64,000 nt of DNA from Microbacterium oxydans. GTDB lineage: Bacteria > Actinomycetota > Actinomycetes > Actinomycetales > Microbacteriaceae. Each line of letters starts with the position of its first letter. Within the stretch, counting starts at the first letter, position 1. The notes beneath the pieces are model-generated. The model was not told the origin of the DNA, did no database searches, and saw only the letters and a list, made by a program, of their open reading frames with translations. The stretch is from the NCBI RefSeq assembly GCF_900095745.1, contig NZ_FMIR01000007.1:1-64000 (forward strand), in the 5' to 3' direction. Shown here piece by piece: positions 4,739 to 13,250 of this stretch. The position numbers and the translations under genes are program-made.

Positions 4739-5881
4739 ATGACCCGCTTCGGCATCGAGGAGGAGTTCCTCTTCCTCGATGAGCACTCGTTGGTGCCCGT
4801 GGCTCTGGCCTCCGGCACGCGCGAGCGCATCACGCGGCTCCGCACCGGCGGCGAGGTCACGAAGGAGTATCTGACCTCGCAGATCGAGTGCCTCACCGAG
4901 CCCGTCTCGACCGGCGCGGATGCCGAGGCACAGCTGCGACACCTGCGCGAGCTGATCGGCTGGCATGCGCAGGAGCAGCAGGCGATCGCGGCCTCGTCGG
5001 GAACGCCGTTCGCCACGACGCGCTCCTCCGCCGTCTCCCCGTCCCCGCACTACGACGTGGTGGCCGAGCAGCTCGGCCATCTCACCCACGATCACGAGGT
5101 CAACGGCCTGCACGTGCACGTCGAGGTGCTCGACGACGAAGAGCGGGTGCGCGCACTCGACCGGGTGCGCGGCTGGTTGCCGGTGCTGCTGGCCCTCACC
5201 GGGAACAGCCCGTTCGTGGAGGGCCGCGACACCTCCTTCGCCAGTTGGCGCAGCATCCTGATCCGTCGTCTGCCCGGTTCGTGGAGCCCGCCGCACTTCC
5301 GCGATCTCACCGAGTACCGCTCGGGGGTGCAGCGACTCATCGATCTGCGGGCCATCGCCGATGCCGCCTCCCTCTCCTGGGCGGTGCGCATCTCGGAGCG
5401 CTACCCGACGGTCGAGGTGCGGGTCTTCGACGCGCAGCTGACTCCGGAGGAGTCGGTGCTCGCCGCGCTGCTCAGCCGCGCGATCGTGCTGACCGACGAC
5501 CAGCCTCCCGCCGCGATCGGCGCGGATGTGATCGACGCGTCACTGTGGACCGCTGCTCGCCGCGGCATGGACGCGCGCGTGATCGACCCGACGACCGGGG
5601 AGATCGACGACGCGCGGACCGTCGCCGAGCGGATGCAGGCCGTTATCGCCCCGGCGCTTCGTGAACTCGGTGACGAGGAGTGGGTGCACGACGGGCTCGC
5701 CCGGCTGCGCACCGACGGCACCGGCGCCACTCGGCAGCGCCGCAGCGTCGAGCAGGACGGGACGGCCGGGCTCGCGCGACTCCTCCGCGCCGGAACGCCG
5801 GCAACTCACCCGGCACCAGCTGCGCCTCGGCCCGATCCGCACGGGGAACGACAGGAGCCCGCGCCCGCGCCCGCGGCCTGA
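4739..5881 (+). CDS. YbdK-type carboxylate-amine ligase (GCS2 family)
   Basis: The 380-residue protein begins with the family signature FGIEEEFLFLD and contains the GCS2 active-site segments HDHEVNGLHVHVEV (about 118-131) and TVEVRVFDAQLTP (about 223-235). The family is ATP-grasp-like glutamate-cysteine ligase type 2. YbdK has weak glutamate-cysteine ligase activity in vitro and its physiological substrate is often unknown. The last ~40 residues are proline/alanine-rich (PAPAAPRPD) and look disordered. It follows the DUF7218 gene by 8 bp. Because actinobacteria generally make mycothiol rather than glutathione, another amide-forming role is possible. Confidence 0.85.
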   Translation: MTRFGIEEEFLFLDEHSLVPVALASGTRERITRLRTGGEVTKEYLTSQIECLTEPVSTGADAEAQLRHLRELIGWHAQEQQAIAASSGTPFATTRSSAVSPSPHYDVVAEQLGHLTHDHEVNGLHVHVEVLDDEERVRALDRVRGWLPVLLALTGNSPFVEGRDTSFASWRSILIRRLPGSWSPPHFRDLTEYRSGVQRLIDLRAIADAASLSWAVRISERYPTVEVRVFDAQLTPEESVLAALLSRAIVLTDDQPPAAIGADVIDASLWTAARRGMDARVIDPTTGEIDDARTVAERMQAVIAPALRELGDEEWVHDGLARLRTDGTGATRQRRSVEQDGTAGLARLLRAGTPATHPAPAAPRPDPHGERQEPAPAPAA

Positions 5882-8182: not shown

Positions 8183-8833
8183 GTGACGAGGACAGGCGGA
8201 GTGGTCGATTCCGTACGCCAGGCCGCCTCGGGTGCCTTCAGCCGTGCGGCGGTGCCGCTCTGGGCCGCCGTGGTCGCGATCGTCGGCCTGCTGGGAGCGT
8301 TCGTGGCATTCGGCGGCCTCGCCCCGGCGACGACGCAGCCGTCGCTCGTCCCCGCCGGCAGCGAGGCGCGCACCTCGCTGTACGCCGTGACCGTGATGGA
8401 TGCCGAGGTCACCGACGAGGTCGAGGAGCAGTATCTGGAGGCGGAGCCGGGTGAGACCCTGCTCATCGTCACGGTGCGACTGGAGAACCTCTCCGACCGC
8501 GCGGTCGGGGTGGAGGGCACGGCCGACCAGGTCGCCTCACGGCTGCTCTCCTCGAGCGCACCGCTTCTCGAACTCTCGGGCGTGGCCGTGACCGACACCG
8601 CGCGCTCCTGGCGGGCGGACGGTTCGCTGCGCGCGGTGGTGCTGCAACCCGGCGTCCCCGCCGATGTGCGCATCGCCTTCCCCGTCGCCGACGATGCTCT
8701 CGACGAGCACGAGGCCCACCTCGATGTGTACGACGCCAGGGAGCAGTCCGGCCAGGTCATCCTCTCGTCGTCGGCGATCACGTGGCGACGGACCGACCTG
8801 ATCGCCCGCACCCCCGTGGAGGTCGGTCCGTGA
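8183..8833 (+). CDS. membrane-anchored protein with DUF4352-like Ig domain
   Basis: The 216-residue protein has one N-terminal membrane anchor (about residues 26-45, VPLWAAVVAIVGLLGAFVAF) and an extracytoplasmic domain. Its core, LYAVTVMDAEVTDEV then ETLLIVTVRLENLSDRAVGV, resembles the Ig-like DUF4352/TRF2-type fold found in many secreted Gram-positive proteins. It is the first of three genes with 4-bp overlaps, so all three products are probably made in fixed proportion. I do not know the function and see no enzyme motif. Confidence 0.75.
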   Translation: MTRTGGVVDSVRQAASGAFSRAAVPLWAAVVAIVGLLGAFVAFGGLAPATTQPSLVPAGSEARTSLYAVTVMDAEVTDEVEEQYLEAEPGETLLIVTVRLENLSDRAVGVEGTADQVASRLLSSSAPLLELSGVAVTDTARSWRADGSLRAVVLQPGVPADVRIAFPVADDALDEHEAHLDVYDAREQSGQVILSSSAITWRRTDLIARTPVEVGP

Positions 8834-9393
8834 GCGCGCGCGGCGGATGGATTCCGTGGGCCGCGGGTATCGCGCTCGTCCTCGCGGCCGGCGTGGTGAC
8901 GGCGGTCACACCGCCCGAGGATGCGCTGACCGATCCCTTCTTCACGAGGGCGGCCGTCGCCGACACGGCCACTTCCCGTACTCTCATCGCCGCGGTGCAG
9001 GAGGCCTCGTTCGCCGACCGGCTGACGGTGGCGGACAAGTGGGAGGCCGAGGGGAACTGGCTCGTGATCGAACTCGCCGCGTCCGCACCGACGACCGAGG
9101 AGGATGCCGTGATCGGCGTCGCGAGCCTCGTGATCGACGGGCAGGTCTTCCTGGCGAGCGAGCGTCCGCCGACATCGCTGCTCCGGGCCAAGCTGCGAGT
9201 GGGCACCGACACCGTCGGGACACTGGCGTTCGAGCTTCCGGAGGGCCTACGGACCGGGAACGGAGAGCTGCGACTCACCGGTGAGTACCCGACGCCGCGT
9301 CTCGACGACGTCATCACCTTCCCGCTCTCGCTCGATGAGGTGCCGCAGGAGACCGACAGGGAACTCGACGAGCCGCGATTGGGGGCGCCATGA
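8830..9393 (+). CDS. membrane-anchored hypothetical protein, 187 aa
   Basis: The GTG at 8830 overlaps the previous stop (GTGA), indicating translational coupling. An N-terminal segment (IPWAAGIALVLAAGVVTAV, about residues 8-26) anchors the protein, and the rest is an exported beta-rich domain. It repeats the pattern of its neighbour: an extended strand ending in NWLVIELAASAPT, then DGQVFLASERPPTSLLRAKL. This suggests a second Ig-like domain and perhaps an ancient duplication of the first gene. No family is recognised. Confidence 0.75.
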   Translation: MSARGGWIPWAAGIALVLAAGVVTAVTPPEDALTDPFFTRAAVADTATSRTLIAAVQEASFADRLTVADKWEAEGNWLVIELAASAPTTEEDAVIGVASLVIDGQVFLASERPPTSLLRAKLRVGTDTVGTLAFELPEGLRTGNGELRLTGEYPTPRLDDVITFPLSLDEVPQETDRELDEPRLGAP

Positions 9394-9875
9394 CCTGGTG
9401 GCGGACACAGCGCTTCGCACTGGTGGCGCTCGTGGTGGCCGCGGCCGCCGCGATCGCCGTGCACGTCTGGTTCGATGTGCTGCCCGCCGCCCCGAAGAGT
9501 ACGCAGGTGCAGGATGCGGAGGACGGGAGGGCCGAGGTCACCGGGCAGAAACTCCGTCTGGACTCCGCCCGCTGGGATGAGTTCGAGGCACCGGCGGGAT
9601 CGCGCACGCTCAGCATCCGGATCGATGCCAGGGCGGAGGGCGAGTCCGCCGGATGCGGGATGTTCACCCTCGCCGAGACCGAGGGCGCGCGCGTCTGGAC
9701 CAACGCCCGGTCCGCGCTCGACGTGCCGTATGACGAGGGCGAGTCGGGCTGCCAGAAGGAGTCAGGCTCCTATGCCATCCTCGCGGTGTTCCTGCTCCCC
9801 GACGACGCCGACGGGCCGTTCGCGCTCGACATCCCCGGCACCGACGAGATCGCGCGCTTCCCCATCGAACCCTGA
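9390..9875 (+). CDS. membrane-anchored hypothetical protein, 161 aa
   Basis: This is the third member of the coupled operon (ATGA overlap with the gene before). It has an N-terminal anchor (FALVALVVAAAAAIAVHVWF, residues 9-28) and a ~130-residue exported domain with two cysteines (SAGCGMF and ESGCQKE) that may form a disulphide. The domain is beta-rich and acidic. Its 3' end overlaps the convergent membrane-protein gene by 114 bp. No known family is recognised; the three proteins may form one envelope complex (inference). Confidence 0.72.
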   Translation: MTWWRTQRFALVALVVAAAAAIAVHVWFDVLPAAPKSTQVQDAEDGRAEVTGQKLRLDSARWDEFEAPAGSRTLSIRIDARAEGESAGCGMFTLAETEGARVWTNARSALDVPYDEGESGCQKESGSYAILAVFLLPDDADGPFALDIPGTDEIARFPIEP

Positions 9876-11027: not shown

Positions 11028-11190
11028 GCCCCCACGGTACCGGTTCGCTGACCGCCCCTGCGGAGCGGATGTCGACACCCCGCCCGCGCCGCGGCGCGTA
11101 TGCCCCGCACGCCCGTCTGCGTCAAGTCCCTGGAGCGGATGATCCACACGCGGCAGGATGCGAAGCATCGCACCGATGGGAGCCCTGTTC

Positions 11191-12243
11191 ATGACCGTAT
11201 CCGCCCCGGCATCCGCCCCGGCCGCAACCCTCCCCTTCACCGACAGAGGGCCGCTGAGTCACGCCGTCATGTCGCACCTGACGGGCGACGACGCCGCTGC
11301 CTCCGACCACACGGGCCTCGCGACCGCTGCCGTGGCGGCGAGCGCTGACGTGGTGCGCGACGACGACATCCAGCTCGCGCTCTTCGTCCTCTACGCCTCG
11401 TCCTACGGATCGCTCCCGCAGCTCGATGCCGACCTGGAGTGGGACCCCGCCCTTCTCACCACACGCCGGATCCTCGAGGAGGCGTTCGAGAGCGCGCTGC
11501 GGGCGAGGGTGCCGATGCCGGAGTCCCCCGAGCCGACCGTGGATGCCGTCGGCCGCGCGCTCTTCGCCCTGGCCGCCGCCGACACGGGACCGAGCCTCTC
11601 GCGGCACATCGCGAAGAAGGCCACCAGGGAGCAGGCGGAGGAGACCCTCATCCAGCGCTCGGTGTACACGCTGCGCGAGGCGGATCCGCATTCCTGGGCC
11701 ATCCCGCGCCTGGAAGGACGCGCCAAGGCCGCCCTCGTCGAGATCCAGTCGGACGAGTACGGCGGCGGGCGACCGCAGCGCGTGCATGCCGAGCTCTTCG
11801 CCCGCGCGATGCGTGCCGCCGGCCTCGATGCCACCTATGGAGCGTACGTCGACGATGTGCCGGCGATCACTCTCGCCTCGCACAACATGATGTCGATGTT
11901 CGGGCTCAACCGCCGCCTCGTCGGCGCGATCGTCGGGCACCTGGCCGCATTCGAGATGACCTCGTCCATCCCCTGCCGCCTGTATGCCGACGGCCTGCAT
12001 CGTCTGGGGTTCGACCCGGATGTGGCGGCCTACTTCGAGGAGCACGTCGAGGCGGATGCGGTGCACGAGCAGATCGCCGCGCGAGACCTGGCCGGCAGCC
12101 TCGCCGAAGACCACCCCGAGCTGCTGCCCGACATCCTGTTCGGCGCGGCGGCGTGCCTGACCGTGGACGGTTGGGGCGGCGAACACATCCTGGAGTCCTG
12201 GCAGGCGGGCACCTCGTCGCTCCGGCCGCGGGTGGCGTCATGA
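11191..12243 (+). CDS. iron-containing redox enzyme, haem-oxygenase-like diiron fold
   Basis: The 350-residue protein (ATG at 11191 after GGGAG) resembles the iron-containing redox enzyme family (PF14518-like), which has a haem-oxygenase-like all-helical fold. Likely iron ligands lie in VEIQSDEYGGGRPQRVHAELF, in GHLAAFEMTSSIP and in the C-terminal EADAVHEQIAARDL, giving the Glu/His/Glu/His/Asp pattern of such oxidases. Relatives include BesC, UndA and SznF-type diiron oxygenases that cleave or hydroxylate small amino-acid-like substrates. It overlaps the CDGSH gene (ATGA), so the iron-sulphur protein is a natural candidate electron donor. The substrate is unknown. Confidence 0.82.
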   Translation: MTVSAPASAPAATLPFTDRGPLSHAVMSHLTGDDAAASDHTGLATAAVAASADVVRDDDIQLALFVLYASSYGSLPQLDADLEWDPALLTTRRILEEAFESALRARVPMPESPEPTVDAVGRALFALAAADTGPSLSRHIAKKATREQAEETLIQRSVYTLREADPHSWAIPRLEGRAKAALVEIQSDEYGGGRPQRVHAELFARAMRAAGLDATYGAYVDDVPAITLASHNMMSMFGLNRRLVGAIVGHLAAFEMTSSIPCRLYADGLHRLGFDPDVAAYFEEHVEADAVHEQIAARDLAGSLAEDHPELLPDILFGAAACLTVDGWGGEHILESWQAGTSSLRPRVAS

Positions 12244-12446
12244 ATGCCCGGACCGAGCCGCCGTCGATCACGCCCTATCCCGACGGACCGCTGCTCGTGC
12301 GGGGCGCCGTCGAACTGCGCACCGCCGACGGTGAGCCGATCGAGCCGCATCGTCGCACCGTGGCCCTGTGCCGCTGCGGGCTCTCGACCCTCAAGCCGTT
12401 CTGCGACGGCACCCACAAGGCGGCGGGTTTCCGCACCGACGACTGA
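12240..12446 (+). CDS. CDGSH-type [2Fe-2S] protein
   Basis: The 68-residue protein carries one complete CDGSH motif, CRCGLSTLKPFCDGTH, which fits C-x-C-x2-S/T-x3-P-x-C-D-G-S/T-H. Three cysteines and one histidine bind a [2Fe-2S] cluster. There is no membrane anchor or signal, so it is a small soluble iron-sulphur protein. The start ATG overlaps the stop of the diiron gene by 4 bp. Small CDGSH proteins transfer electrons or clusters, and the tight coupling makes a redox partnership likely (inference). Confidence 0.92.
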   Translation: MNARTEPPSITPYPDGPLLVRGAVELRTADGEPIEPHRRTVALCRCGLSTLKPFCDGTHKAAGFRTDD

Positions 12447-12470: not shown

Positions 12471-13250
12471 TCAGGCCTCGGGCCAGTAGTAGCTGTCGGG
12501 GAGGGCGCGGGCGCCGAAGATCGCCTGACCGACACGCACGCAGGTCGCCCCCTCCTCGACCGCGATCTCGTAGTCCCCCGACATCCCCATCGAGAGCTCG
12601 CCGGAGCCGATGAGGTCGGGCGCGTCTTCTCTGGCCTGGTCTCGCAGTGTGCGAAGGAGGGAGAAGCACTCGCGCACCCGCTGGTCGTCGGGCGTCAGGA
12701 TGGCGAGCGTCATGAGTCCGCGCACGCGAAGGCTCTGATACGAGGGCAGTGCCTCGAGGAAGGCGGGGAGTTCCCCCGGCGGCATCCCGAACTTGGAATC
12801 CTCGGCAGAGGTGTTCACCTGCACGAAGACGTCGAGGCTGCGTCCTGCCGCCTGCAGGCGCCGATCGAGCGCCTCGGCGACACGCAACCGGTCGAGGGCC
12901 TGGAATTCCGTGGCGAAGGTGGCGACGTCCCGTGCCTTGTTGGTCTGCAGATGTCCGATGATCGACCAGGACACGTCGAGGTCGCTCGTCTCGCCGTGCT
13001 TGCGCACCGCCTCTTGCACCTTGTTCTCTCCGAGCAGCCGCATGCCCGACTCGATGGCGACCCTGACGCGCTCGGTGGGGACGGTCTTGCTCACCGGAAG
13101 CAGCGTGACCTCTTCCGGGAGGCGTCCGGCGCGACGGGCCGCCTCGTCGATGCGTGTGCGGACGGCTGCGACGTTGTGGTGGAAGTCGTCGACGGTGAAC
13201 GCCGTGGGGTATCGATCGTCGACCCCGCTCGGCTGCTCTGGTTTTGACAT
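12471..13250 (-). CDS. PLP-homeostasis protein (YggS/PLPBP family)
   Basis: The 259-residue protein is the usual YggS size. It keeps the lysine that binds PLP (K55 in LLPVSKTVP), the GENKVQEA segment, IGHLQTNKAR, VNTSAEDSKFG and the phosphate-binding GMSGDYEIAVEEG. Family members are single-domain PLP-binding proteins that buffer PLP and affect amino- and keto-acid pools, without known catalysis. The ATG lies inside a 16-bp operator shared with the mocR promoter. A TATGTT hexamer 12 bp upstream could be its -10 box, which would leave a leader of only a few bases. It is divergent from the gabT-like gene. Confidence 0.92.
   Translation of the reverse strand: MSKPEQPSGVDDRYPTAFTVDDFHHNVAAVRTRIDEAARRAGRLPEEVTLLPVSKTVPTERVRVAIESGMRLLGENKVQEAVRKHGETSDLDVSWSIIGHLQTNKARDVATFATEFQALDRLRVAEALDRRLQAAGRSLDVFVQVNTSAEDSKFGMPPGELPAFLEALPSYQSLRVRGLMTLAILTPDDQRVRECFSLLRTLRDQAREDAPDLIGSGELSMGMSGDYEIAVEEGATCVRVGQAIFGARALPDSYYWPEA

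Follow-up and report, generated by a model that had tools for sequence, protein, structure and literature searches.

Results

Overlapping genes for an HDO and a CDGSH protein

The DNA analyzed here (the window) is a stretch of 64,000 nucleotides from Microbacterium oxydans, the forward strand of which carries a gene for a 350-residue protein of the haem-oxygenase-like dimetal oxidase/oxygenase (HDO) family (PF14518; 11191..12243, +), with a predicted dimetal site of three His and four carboxylates (3H/4C), and a gene for a 68-residue CDGSH [2Fe-2S] protein (PF09360; 12240..12446, +), with a single, type 4-like motif. The HDO start was taken as the ATG at 11191, which has GGGAG 8 bases 5' of it, and the frame ends with the TGA at 12243. 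An alternative in-frame ATG at 11158 gives a protein of 361 residues, and the numbering of the HDO ligands follows this longer frame. A 4-bp gene overlap had been claimed in an earlier reading of the window made from the sequence alone (the sequence-only reading), and it was indeed found as the start/stop tetranucleotide ATGA (12240..12243, +), as would be expected of translational coupling. Third-position GC was 0.89 in the HDO frame and 0.87 in the CDGSH frame, and each of the two families was represented by a single gene in the source genome. The closest named relative of the HDO, among the best 80 of 539 loci, was that of Microbacterium sp. MYb45 (99% over the HDO).

Next to the pair lies a gene of the alanine-racemase-N family (12471-13250, -), while its other neighbors in the window encode a class-III aminotransferase, GAPDH, and a class-I amidotransferase; no Pfam match was obtained for the divergent gene upstream of the HDO. 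None of these neighbors suggests a pathway. The window also contains a GH114-family gene (PF03537; 7250-8173, +) and, after it, three adjoining same-strand genes with little or no Pfam match (8183-9875, +), all unrelated to the pair, as well as a gene of the YbdK-like carboxylate-amine ligase cluster (4739-5881, +), located 5.3 kb upstream of the pair.

Metal ligands and fold of the HDO protein

The HDO protein matched PF14518 with an E-value of 1.7e-59 (201 bits versus a cut-off of 28.9). Its seven predicted metal ligands, E174, E200, H210, E266, H296, D300, and H303, are encoded between 11680 and 12069 (+). Five of them (E200, H210, E266, H296, and D300) form the Glu/His/Glu/His/Asp pattern pointed out by the sequence-only reading, and E174 and H303 complete the set, which thus contains the three His and three or four carboxylates that are characteristic of HDOs. 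All seven were invariant in an alignment of 34 HDO sequences and, by a hand count on the alignment, correspond to E189, E215, H225, E281, H311, D315, and H318 of SznF. A wider alignment of 171 HDO loci (170 distinct sequences, many of them closely related) showed the complete set in 170, and the one remaining locus is cut short where its contig stops, so the loss of iron ligands that the sequence-only reading had named as evidence against itself was not observed. The counterpart of E174 is a Glu in SznF (E189) and RohS and not in HrmI. This agrees with the accessible part of the HDO review PMC13108848, where SznF is classed as 3H/4C and HrmI as 3H/3C; from this contrast, we infer that E189 is the extra ligand in SznF. 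With E174, the source protein possesses the extra Glu of the 3H/4C subgroup (SznF, RohS). The metal bound at the site is presumably iron.

The AF2 model of the HDO (mean pLDDT 94) was most similar to HrmI (Z 34.9), SznF (28.4), RohS (27.9), FlcD (25.5), and CADD (19.6), followed by other structures, and Z-scores above 14 against true haem oxygenases revealed the haem-oxygenase-like helical fold. Profile searches gave SznF (5.5e-19), HrmI (3.5e-18), and RohS (2.2e-16), and then BesC (0.0013). Since SznF, HrmI, and RohS led both the profile and the structure matches, the protein was placed on the N-oxygenase side of the HDO superfamily. It is thus probably a two-metal, O2-activating enzyme, as predicted from its sequence and model, and perhaps an N-oxygenase. 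N-oxygenation is not proven by the ligands alone, because the 3H/4C set occurs in a quarter of HDOs (PMC13108848, accessible part).

A comparison with the three enzymes revealed both common features and differences. SznF was the best PDB sequence match, with all seven ligands aligned and an N-terminal helical part preceding the HDO domain, but identity is only about 20%, and the C-terminal cupin with which SznF carries out N-nitrosation is absent from the source protein (no cupin domain was found by Pfam search in the 361-residue frame), which is therefore not SznF proper. The lysine N-oxygenase HrmI was the top structural match (311 residues aligned, rmsd 2.3) and has the same two-part architecture without a cupin, but shares 19% identity and has no Glu at the position of E174. 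RohS, a 2-aminoimidazole N-oxygenase, has in common with the source protein the Glu at E174 and the PRL motif after it, although identity is 16% and its N-terminal part is shorter. To our knowledge, no CDGSH partner is known for either SznF or RohS.

The CDGSH protein

The sequence-only reading was right in proposing a complete single CDGSH domain: PF09360 spans the full 68 residues (E 5.6e-20), and the ligands C44, C46, C55, and H59 are intact, in CRCGLSTLKPFCDGTH. They form the motif C-x-C-x8-C-x3-H, and the same ligand pattern was present in all 149 HDO-linked CDGSH proteins. The name 'ferredoxin' given to the protein in that reading should, however, be dropped, as CDGSH proteins differ from ferredoxins in having another fold and a His-ligated cluster. 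Judging by its motif, the protein belongs instead with the type 4 CISDs, which are recognized by a Lys or Arg directly after the His ligand, here K60 after H59. Such a Lys is given as a type 4 feature in the accessible part of PMC3174974. The type 4 protein RsCISD (PDB 3tbm) likewise has a single CDGSH motif with three Cys and one His ligand and a Lys after the His, and it matched the source protein over the whole length (4.7e-9). In contrast to the source-type CDGSH, which is tied to an HDO, RsCISD is without a known partner enzyme, and the accessible part of PMC3174974, dealing with CDGSH proteins, gives no partner.

Linkage of the two genes in relatives

In a sample of 98 genomes (59 of the same genus and 39 of the order), 40 contained an HDO and 42 a CDGSH match. 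Both genes were present in 27 of the genus genomes and neither in the other 32 (Fisher 2e-17, a value that ignores shared ancestry). The CDGSH gene was found no more than about 1.1 kb from the HDO in 39 of the 40 HDO genomes, that is, in the source genome and in 38 of 39 fetched loci. In these 38, it adjoined the HDO downstream (26 loci), lay downstream about 1 kb apart (3), was convergent (1) or divergent (7), or was located upstream on the same strand (1). The sole unlinked HDO genome, G089, gave no CDGSH match genome-wide and none in the 2 kb downstream of its HDO, which on the upstream side stops 24 bases from the contig end. A CDGSH gene without an HDO occurred in three genomes (G079, G086, and G094). 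When L060 was left out of the 27 genus loci, a simple shared-gene rule placed the pair in 13 different neighborhoods in the other 26, indicating that it moves as a cassette. No HDO-CDGSH fusion was noticed in the loci examined; one suggested by a long frame in locus L071 was rejected, as the genes are in different frames.

The search was extended to 296 evenly drawn genomes of the phylum. They yielded 52 strong HDO matches (the source's own match, the fragment G109:C373, and 11 weak matches with E-values of 1e-6 to 1e-3 were left out of the count), with a CDGSH gene less than 5 kb away in 32, elsewhere in the genome in 7, and in 13 cases a genome without a match. At the level of the class and below, linkage was seen for 19 of 20 HDO matches, the source's own included, and the misses fell mainly in other classes. 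Among the best 80 of 539 named loci, 78 were linked, and the other two (L192 and L199) end 0.7 and 1.1 kb past the HDO. After dereplication (<72% identity, n=97), a CDGSH gene was found within 5 kb of 83 HDOs, farther off in one case, and nowhere in the fetched stretch in 13, so that the pair being unlinked in most relatives, which the sequence-only reading had considered fatal to its proposal, is not what the survey revealed. In the named, dereplicated, and tree counts, 'none' refers to the fetched stretch, and L111 and L103 have a CDGSH gene on another contig. A tree of 96 HDOs (83 linked; the truncated L121 was left out), which was built quickly and contains many weak branches, required at least 12 changes between four arrangements of the two genes and five changes of linkage, although in one clade 50 of 53 rows had the CDGSH gene downstream on the same strand. 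As the arrangement changed at least 12 times versus five changes of linkage, selection rather than inertia appears to hold the pair together. The strongest evidence for a joint function is that the genes were repeatedly re-placed beside each other. Far from being peculiar to the source genome, the pairing is of old origin and occurs widely in Actinomycetota.

The pairing breaks down in a basal branch and in much of the wider phylum, and 8 of the 13 unlinked tree rows sit in two basal branches. The unlinked HDOs that were aligned retain the same ligands. Since those HDOs keep them when unlinked or in CDGSH-less genomes, the CDGSH protein is not indispensable to the HDO class. In a search for another small Fe-S partner, 19 loci with absent or doubtful linkage were scanned for cysteine motifs, and no convincing candidate emerged; an 84-residue neighbor present in three of them was rejected, as it contains no cysteine and its C-terminal half is, by eye, Rho-like. 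Two genomes contained a second HDO copy. At L108 (G329:C33:17191-20239), two divergent copies are separated by about 1.2 kb, and their genome gave no CDGSH match. The other second copy, L122 (G173:C1:2998349-2999356), has two stop codons in the aligned reading and is possibly a decaying duplicate, the first copy of that genome being intact with a CDGSH gene nearby. Outside actinobacteria, none of five plasmid HDOs (Vibrio, Nostoc, Rahnella, Azospirillum, and Komagataeibacter) had a CDGSH gene annotated within 4 kb, in a collection whose annotation is incomplete. In this collection, the Streptomyces NBC_01237 record carries no annotation, and a Gordonia plasmid HDO (L238:3434-4474) is annotated as two adjacent pieces, with no annotated CDGSH gene.

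Genes accompanying the pair

Neighbor enrichment was assessed by comparing the surroundings within 3 kb of the HDO (566 kb, near) with the rest of the same 97 loci (686 kb, far). The genes were called with a crude GC-frame script, which missed or over-extended some of them, and third-gene families were assigned from representatives checked with family models. A glycosyltransferase-like gene was found near in 20 of 97 loci and never far, a HemK2-like methyltransferase in 12 versus none, a YbdK-like carboxylate-amine ligase in 11 versus 2, a Mn catalase in 6 versus none, and a sigma-factor gene in 4 versus none. A zinc alcohol dehydrogenase was discarded as a companion, as it was not specific (9 near versus 7 far). 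The glycosyltransferase-like family (L063:8703-9764, L130:5848-6861, and 18 further loci) has an invariant ADDD motif and a helical C-terminal part, which is probably membrane-bound. Of two members checked against Pfam, one scored above the cut-off and the other had no match, and a model (pLDDT 91) matched GT-A enzymes, e.g. PcManGT and ArnC. On annotated plasmids, HDO, CDGSH, and methyltransferase genes occur together in two Streptomyces and one Kitasatospora, and a Curtobacterium plasmid carries the bare pair with a 4-bp overlap. The statement of the sequence-only reading that no biosynthetic partner lies beside the pair is therefore true of the window, but some relatives add a glycosyltransferase or a HemK2-like methyltransferase. 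Since the source genome has no glycosyltransferase match and only distant methyltransferase matches (the best 37% identity over part), the pair itself is the core.

Hsp20 and DUF-type stress genes were found near the pair in some relatives. On the Streptomyces plasmid p65_CHABEC (L239:1-5959), the methyltransferase, CDGSH, and HDO genes lie between two sigma-factor genes of the SigB/SigF/SigG type. A SigF-like motif upstream of the HDO was found in 2 of 18 Streptomyces/Mycobacterium-like loci, 0 of 59 Micrococcales, and 1 of 26 loci of a third group, with an expectation of 0.001-0.009 per locus and one locus counted in two groups; a wider look showed scattered sites. This would be a weak indication of a stress-regulon promoter.

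Rieske genes beside SznF-like HDOs

A similar situation was found for an SznF-like HDO with a cupin from Azospirillum, the gene of which overlaps by 4 bp with the next gene, encoding a 111-residue Rieske protein. Comparison of five plasmid records with a match covering at least 80% of this HDO (Azospirillum itself included) showed a Rieske gene overlapping the 3' end of the HDO gene on four plasmids from different phyla and classes (L237:3476-5223, L245:3432-5155, L246:3468-5242, and L247:3432-5133); the overlaps were 4, 4, 10, and 20 bp in Azospirillum, Gloeothece, Methylobacterium, and Pantoea, respectively. In the fifth, from Tistrella (L248; 26.5% identity), no Rieske gene is annotated. 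Small His-ligated [2Fe-2S] partners thus recur beside SznF-type HDOs. In Pantoea, an ada gene (O6-methylguanine repair; L247:2203-3279) precedes the SznF-like HDO gene, a position that self-protection against an alkylating product would predict.

Discussion

Because the two genes remain neighbors across many actinobacteria despite reshuffled order, the CDGSH protein is probably the enzyme's own supplier of electrons (or iron). We consider it somewhat better than an even bet that the pair is one functional unit in which an O2-activating 3H/4C HDO is served by a dedicated CDGSH electron donor, perhaps for N-oxygenation, and used in stress or stationary phase. In HDOs, O2 is bound by the diferrous site, which is diferric when the reaction is over, and two electrons are needed for the next turnover; a CDGSH dimer contains two one-electron clusters. 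Under this mechanism, the SznF/RohS-like HDO and the small, probably dimeric CDGSH protein would be made together from the operon and would form a complex, in which the CDGSH protein would hand electrons singly to the diferric site, restoring its diferrous, O2-reactive state. The reaction would most likely be an N-oxygenation or another oxidation, with a small amine or an amino-acid-like compound as the substrate, and it may serve stress or stationary-phase physiology rather than a large secondary-metabolite cluster. The peroxo-diferric path of HDOs is described in the accessible part of PMC13108848. It speaks against a dedicated donor that other HDOs turn over with chemical reductants, as stated in the accessible part of PMC13185094.

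That the two genes are neighbors merely through common descent or hitch-hiking, without a joint function, is highly improbable. Most Micrococcales loci do share one arrangement, as seen in the large clade with the CDGSH gene downstream, but the linkage of 83 of 97 HDOs, the excess of arrangement changes over linkage changes, and the fact that the 59 genomes of the genus contain either both genes or neither argue for a functional unit rather than chance, and the 13 neighborhoods likewise do not fit simple inheritance. The main rival to electron donation is the supply of iron or cofactor, in which the CDGSH protein would provide or store the iron of a labile dimetal site, as such or in a cluster that is degraded to iron. 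CDGSH proteins can also pass on clusters or iron, and the pair is not accompanied by a linked reductase for the CDGSH protein, which suits a metal donor just as well as an electron donor. Many HDOs have a labile diiron cluster and a flexible third core helix (PMC13108848, accessible part). Ferrous iron from a [2Fe-2S] protein would be unusual, though, and the Rieske partners of SznF-like HDOs, which come from a family known for electron transfer, favor electrons over iron, and we regard iron supply as rather unlikely.

The pair could also carry out a single step in a small pathway of biosynthesis or modification, the other enzymes of which vary (a membrane-bound family-2-like glycosyltransferase, a HemK2-like methyltransferase) or are unlinked, as in the source genome. 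Both enzymes and the YbdK-like ligase cluster near the HDO, and named records show HDO, CDGSH, and HemK2/MTQ2 methyltransferase genes adjoining; in the source genome, however, neither the glycosyltransferase nor the methyltransferase is needed, and we see the pathway as possible, if less than probable. Somewhat less likely still is a stress-protection module, in which the HDO would protect cells under drying or other stress from damage by peroxide or free iron, the CDGSH protein would be its partner in redox or iron handling, and no notable small molecule would be made, although this is not exclusive of dedicated electron donation. It is suggested by DtpC, an HDO co-transcribed with the catalase KatE that protects dried Acinetobacter and needs its metal ligands (PMC13232832, accessible part), by the Mn catalase, sigma-factor, Hsp20, and DUF-type stress genes nearby, and by the plasmid set flanked on both sides by SigB/SigF/SigG genes. 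Such neighbors, however, occur in a minority of loci, and the SigF-like motif in 2 of 18 Streptomyces/Mycobacterium-like loci and in none of the 59 Micrococcales leaves the evidence for the latter thin. A possible link to spray-drying in Mycobacterium smegmatis depends on MSMEG_1772 being presumably the CDGSH protein and MSMEG_1773 presumably the HDO. In the accessible part of PMC5445863, MSMEG_1771 is a putative methylase and MSMEG_1772 and MSMEG_1773 are conserved hypothetical proteins, all raised in spray-dried lines; that of PMC7390352 holds nothing further on this link, and the published 32-base promoter of MSMEG_1773 had no match in 396 genomes of the genus of genome G134.

A precedent for a dedicated donor is the flavin/[2Fe-2S] reductase MboB, without which the HDO MboA does not function; according to the authors, this may be the first case of an HDO with a redox partner of its own (PMC13185094, accessible part). 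The claim of the sequence-only reading that the pairing is new thus holds for the kind of partner and not for the idea of a dedicated redox partner. As in MboA/MboB, a linked redox protein would be dedicated to one HDO, the linkage being seen in 83 of the 97 dereplicated loci. In contrast, the Mbo pair consists of a 3H/3C desaturase (MboA) and an NAD(P)H reductase of the flavin/[2Fe-2S] type (MboB; PMC13185094, accessible part), while the partner described here is a 68-residue CDGSH protein without a flavin or NADH site. DtpC, from Acinetobacter desiccation tolerance and likened here by description, not sequence, is similar in being a stress-setting HDO encoded beside a catalase gene, but it has six reported ligands, and no CDGSH partner is mentioned in the accessible part of PMC13232832. 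The word CDGSH is likewise absent from the accessible parts of that paper and of the review PMC13108848, and no report of the HDO-CDGSH pairing was found among open-access papers, while both genes, and also the set of three, already bear these names in public records annotated by NCBI. As a whole, the interpretation offered by the sequence-only reading is partly supported.

A broader and tentative idea, which we would not put at even chances, is that small His-ligated [2Fe-2S] proteins are general dedicated donors to 3H/4C HDOs (CDGSH in Actinomycetota, Rieske elsewhere) and that the actinobacterial pair is a phylum-wide enzyme induced in stress or dormancy, with a common metabolite as its substrate and no place in a private antibiotic pathway. 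So far, the dedicated HDO partner has been a flavin/[2Fe-2S] reductase, and a conserved HDO-CDGSH pair would add a far smaller kind of partner; it would also suggest an HDO reaction that does not belong to a large biosynthetic cluster. If the pair is a real unit, bacterial CDGSH proteins would gain a job, and type 4 CDGSH proteins a defined partner.
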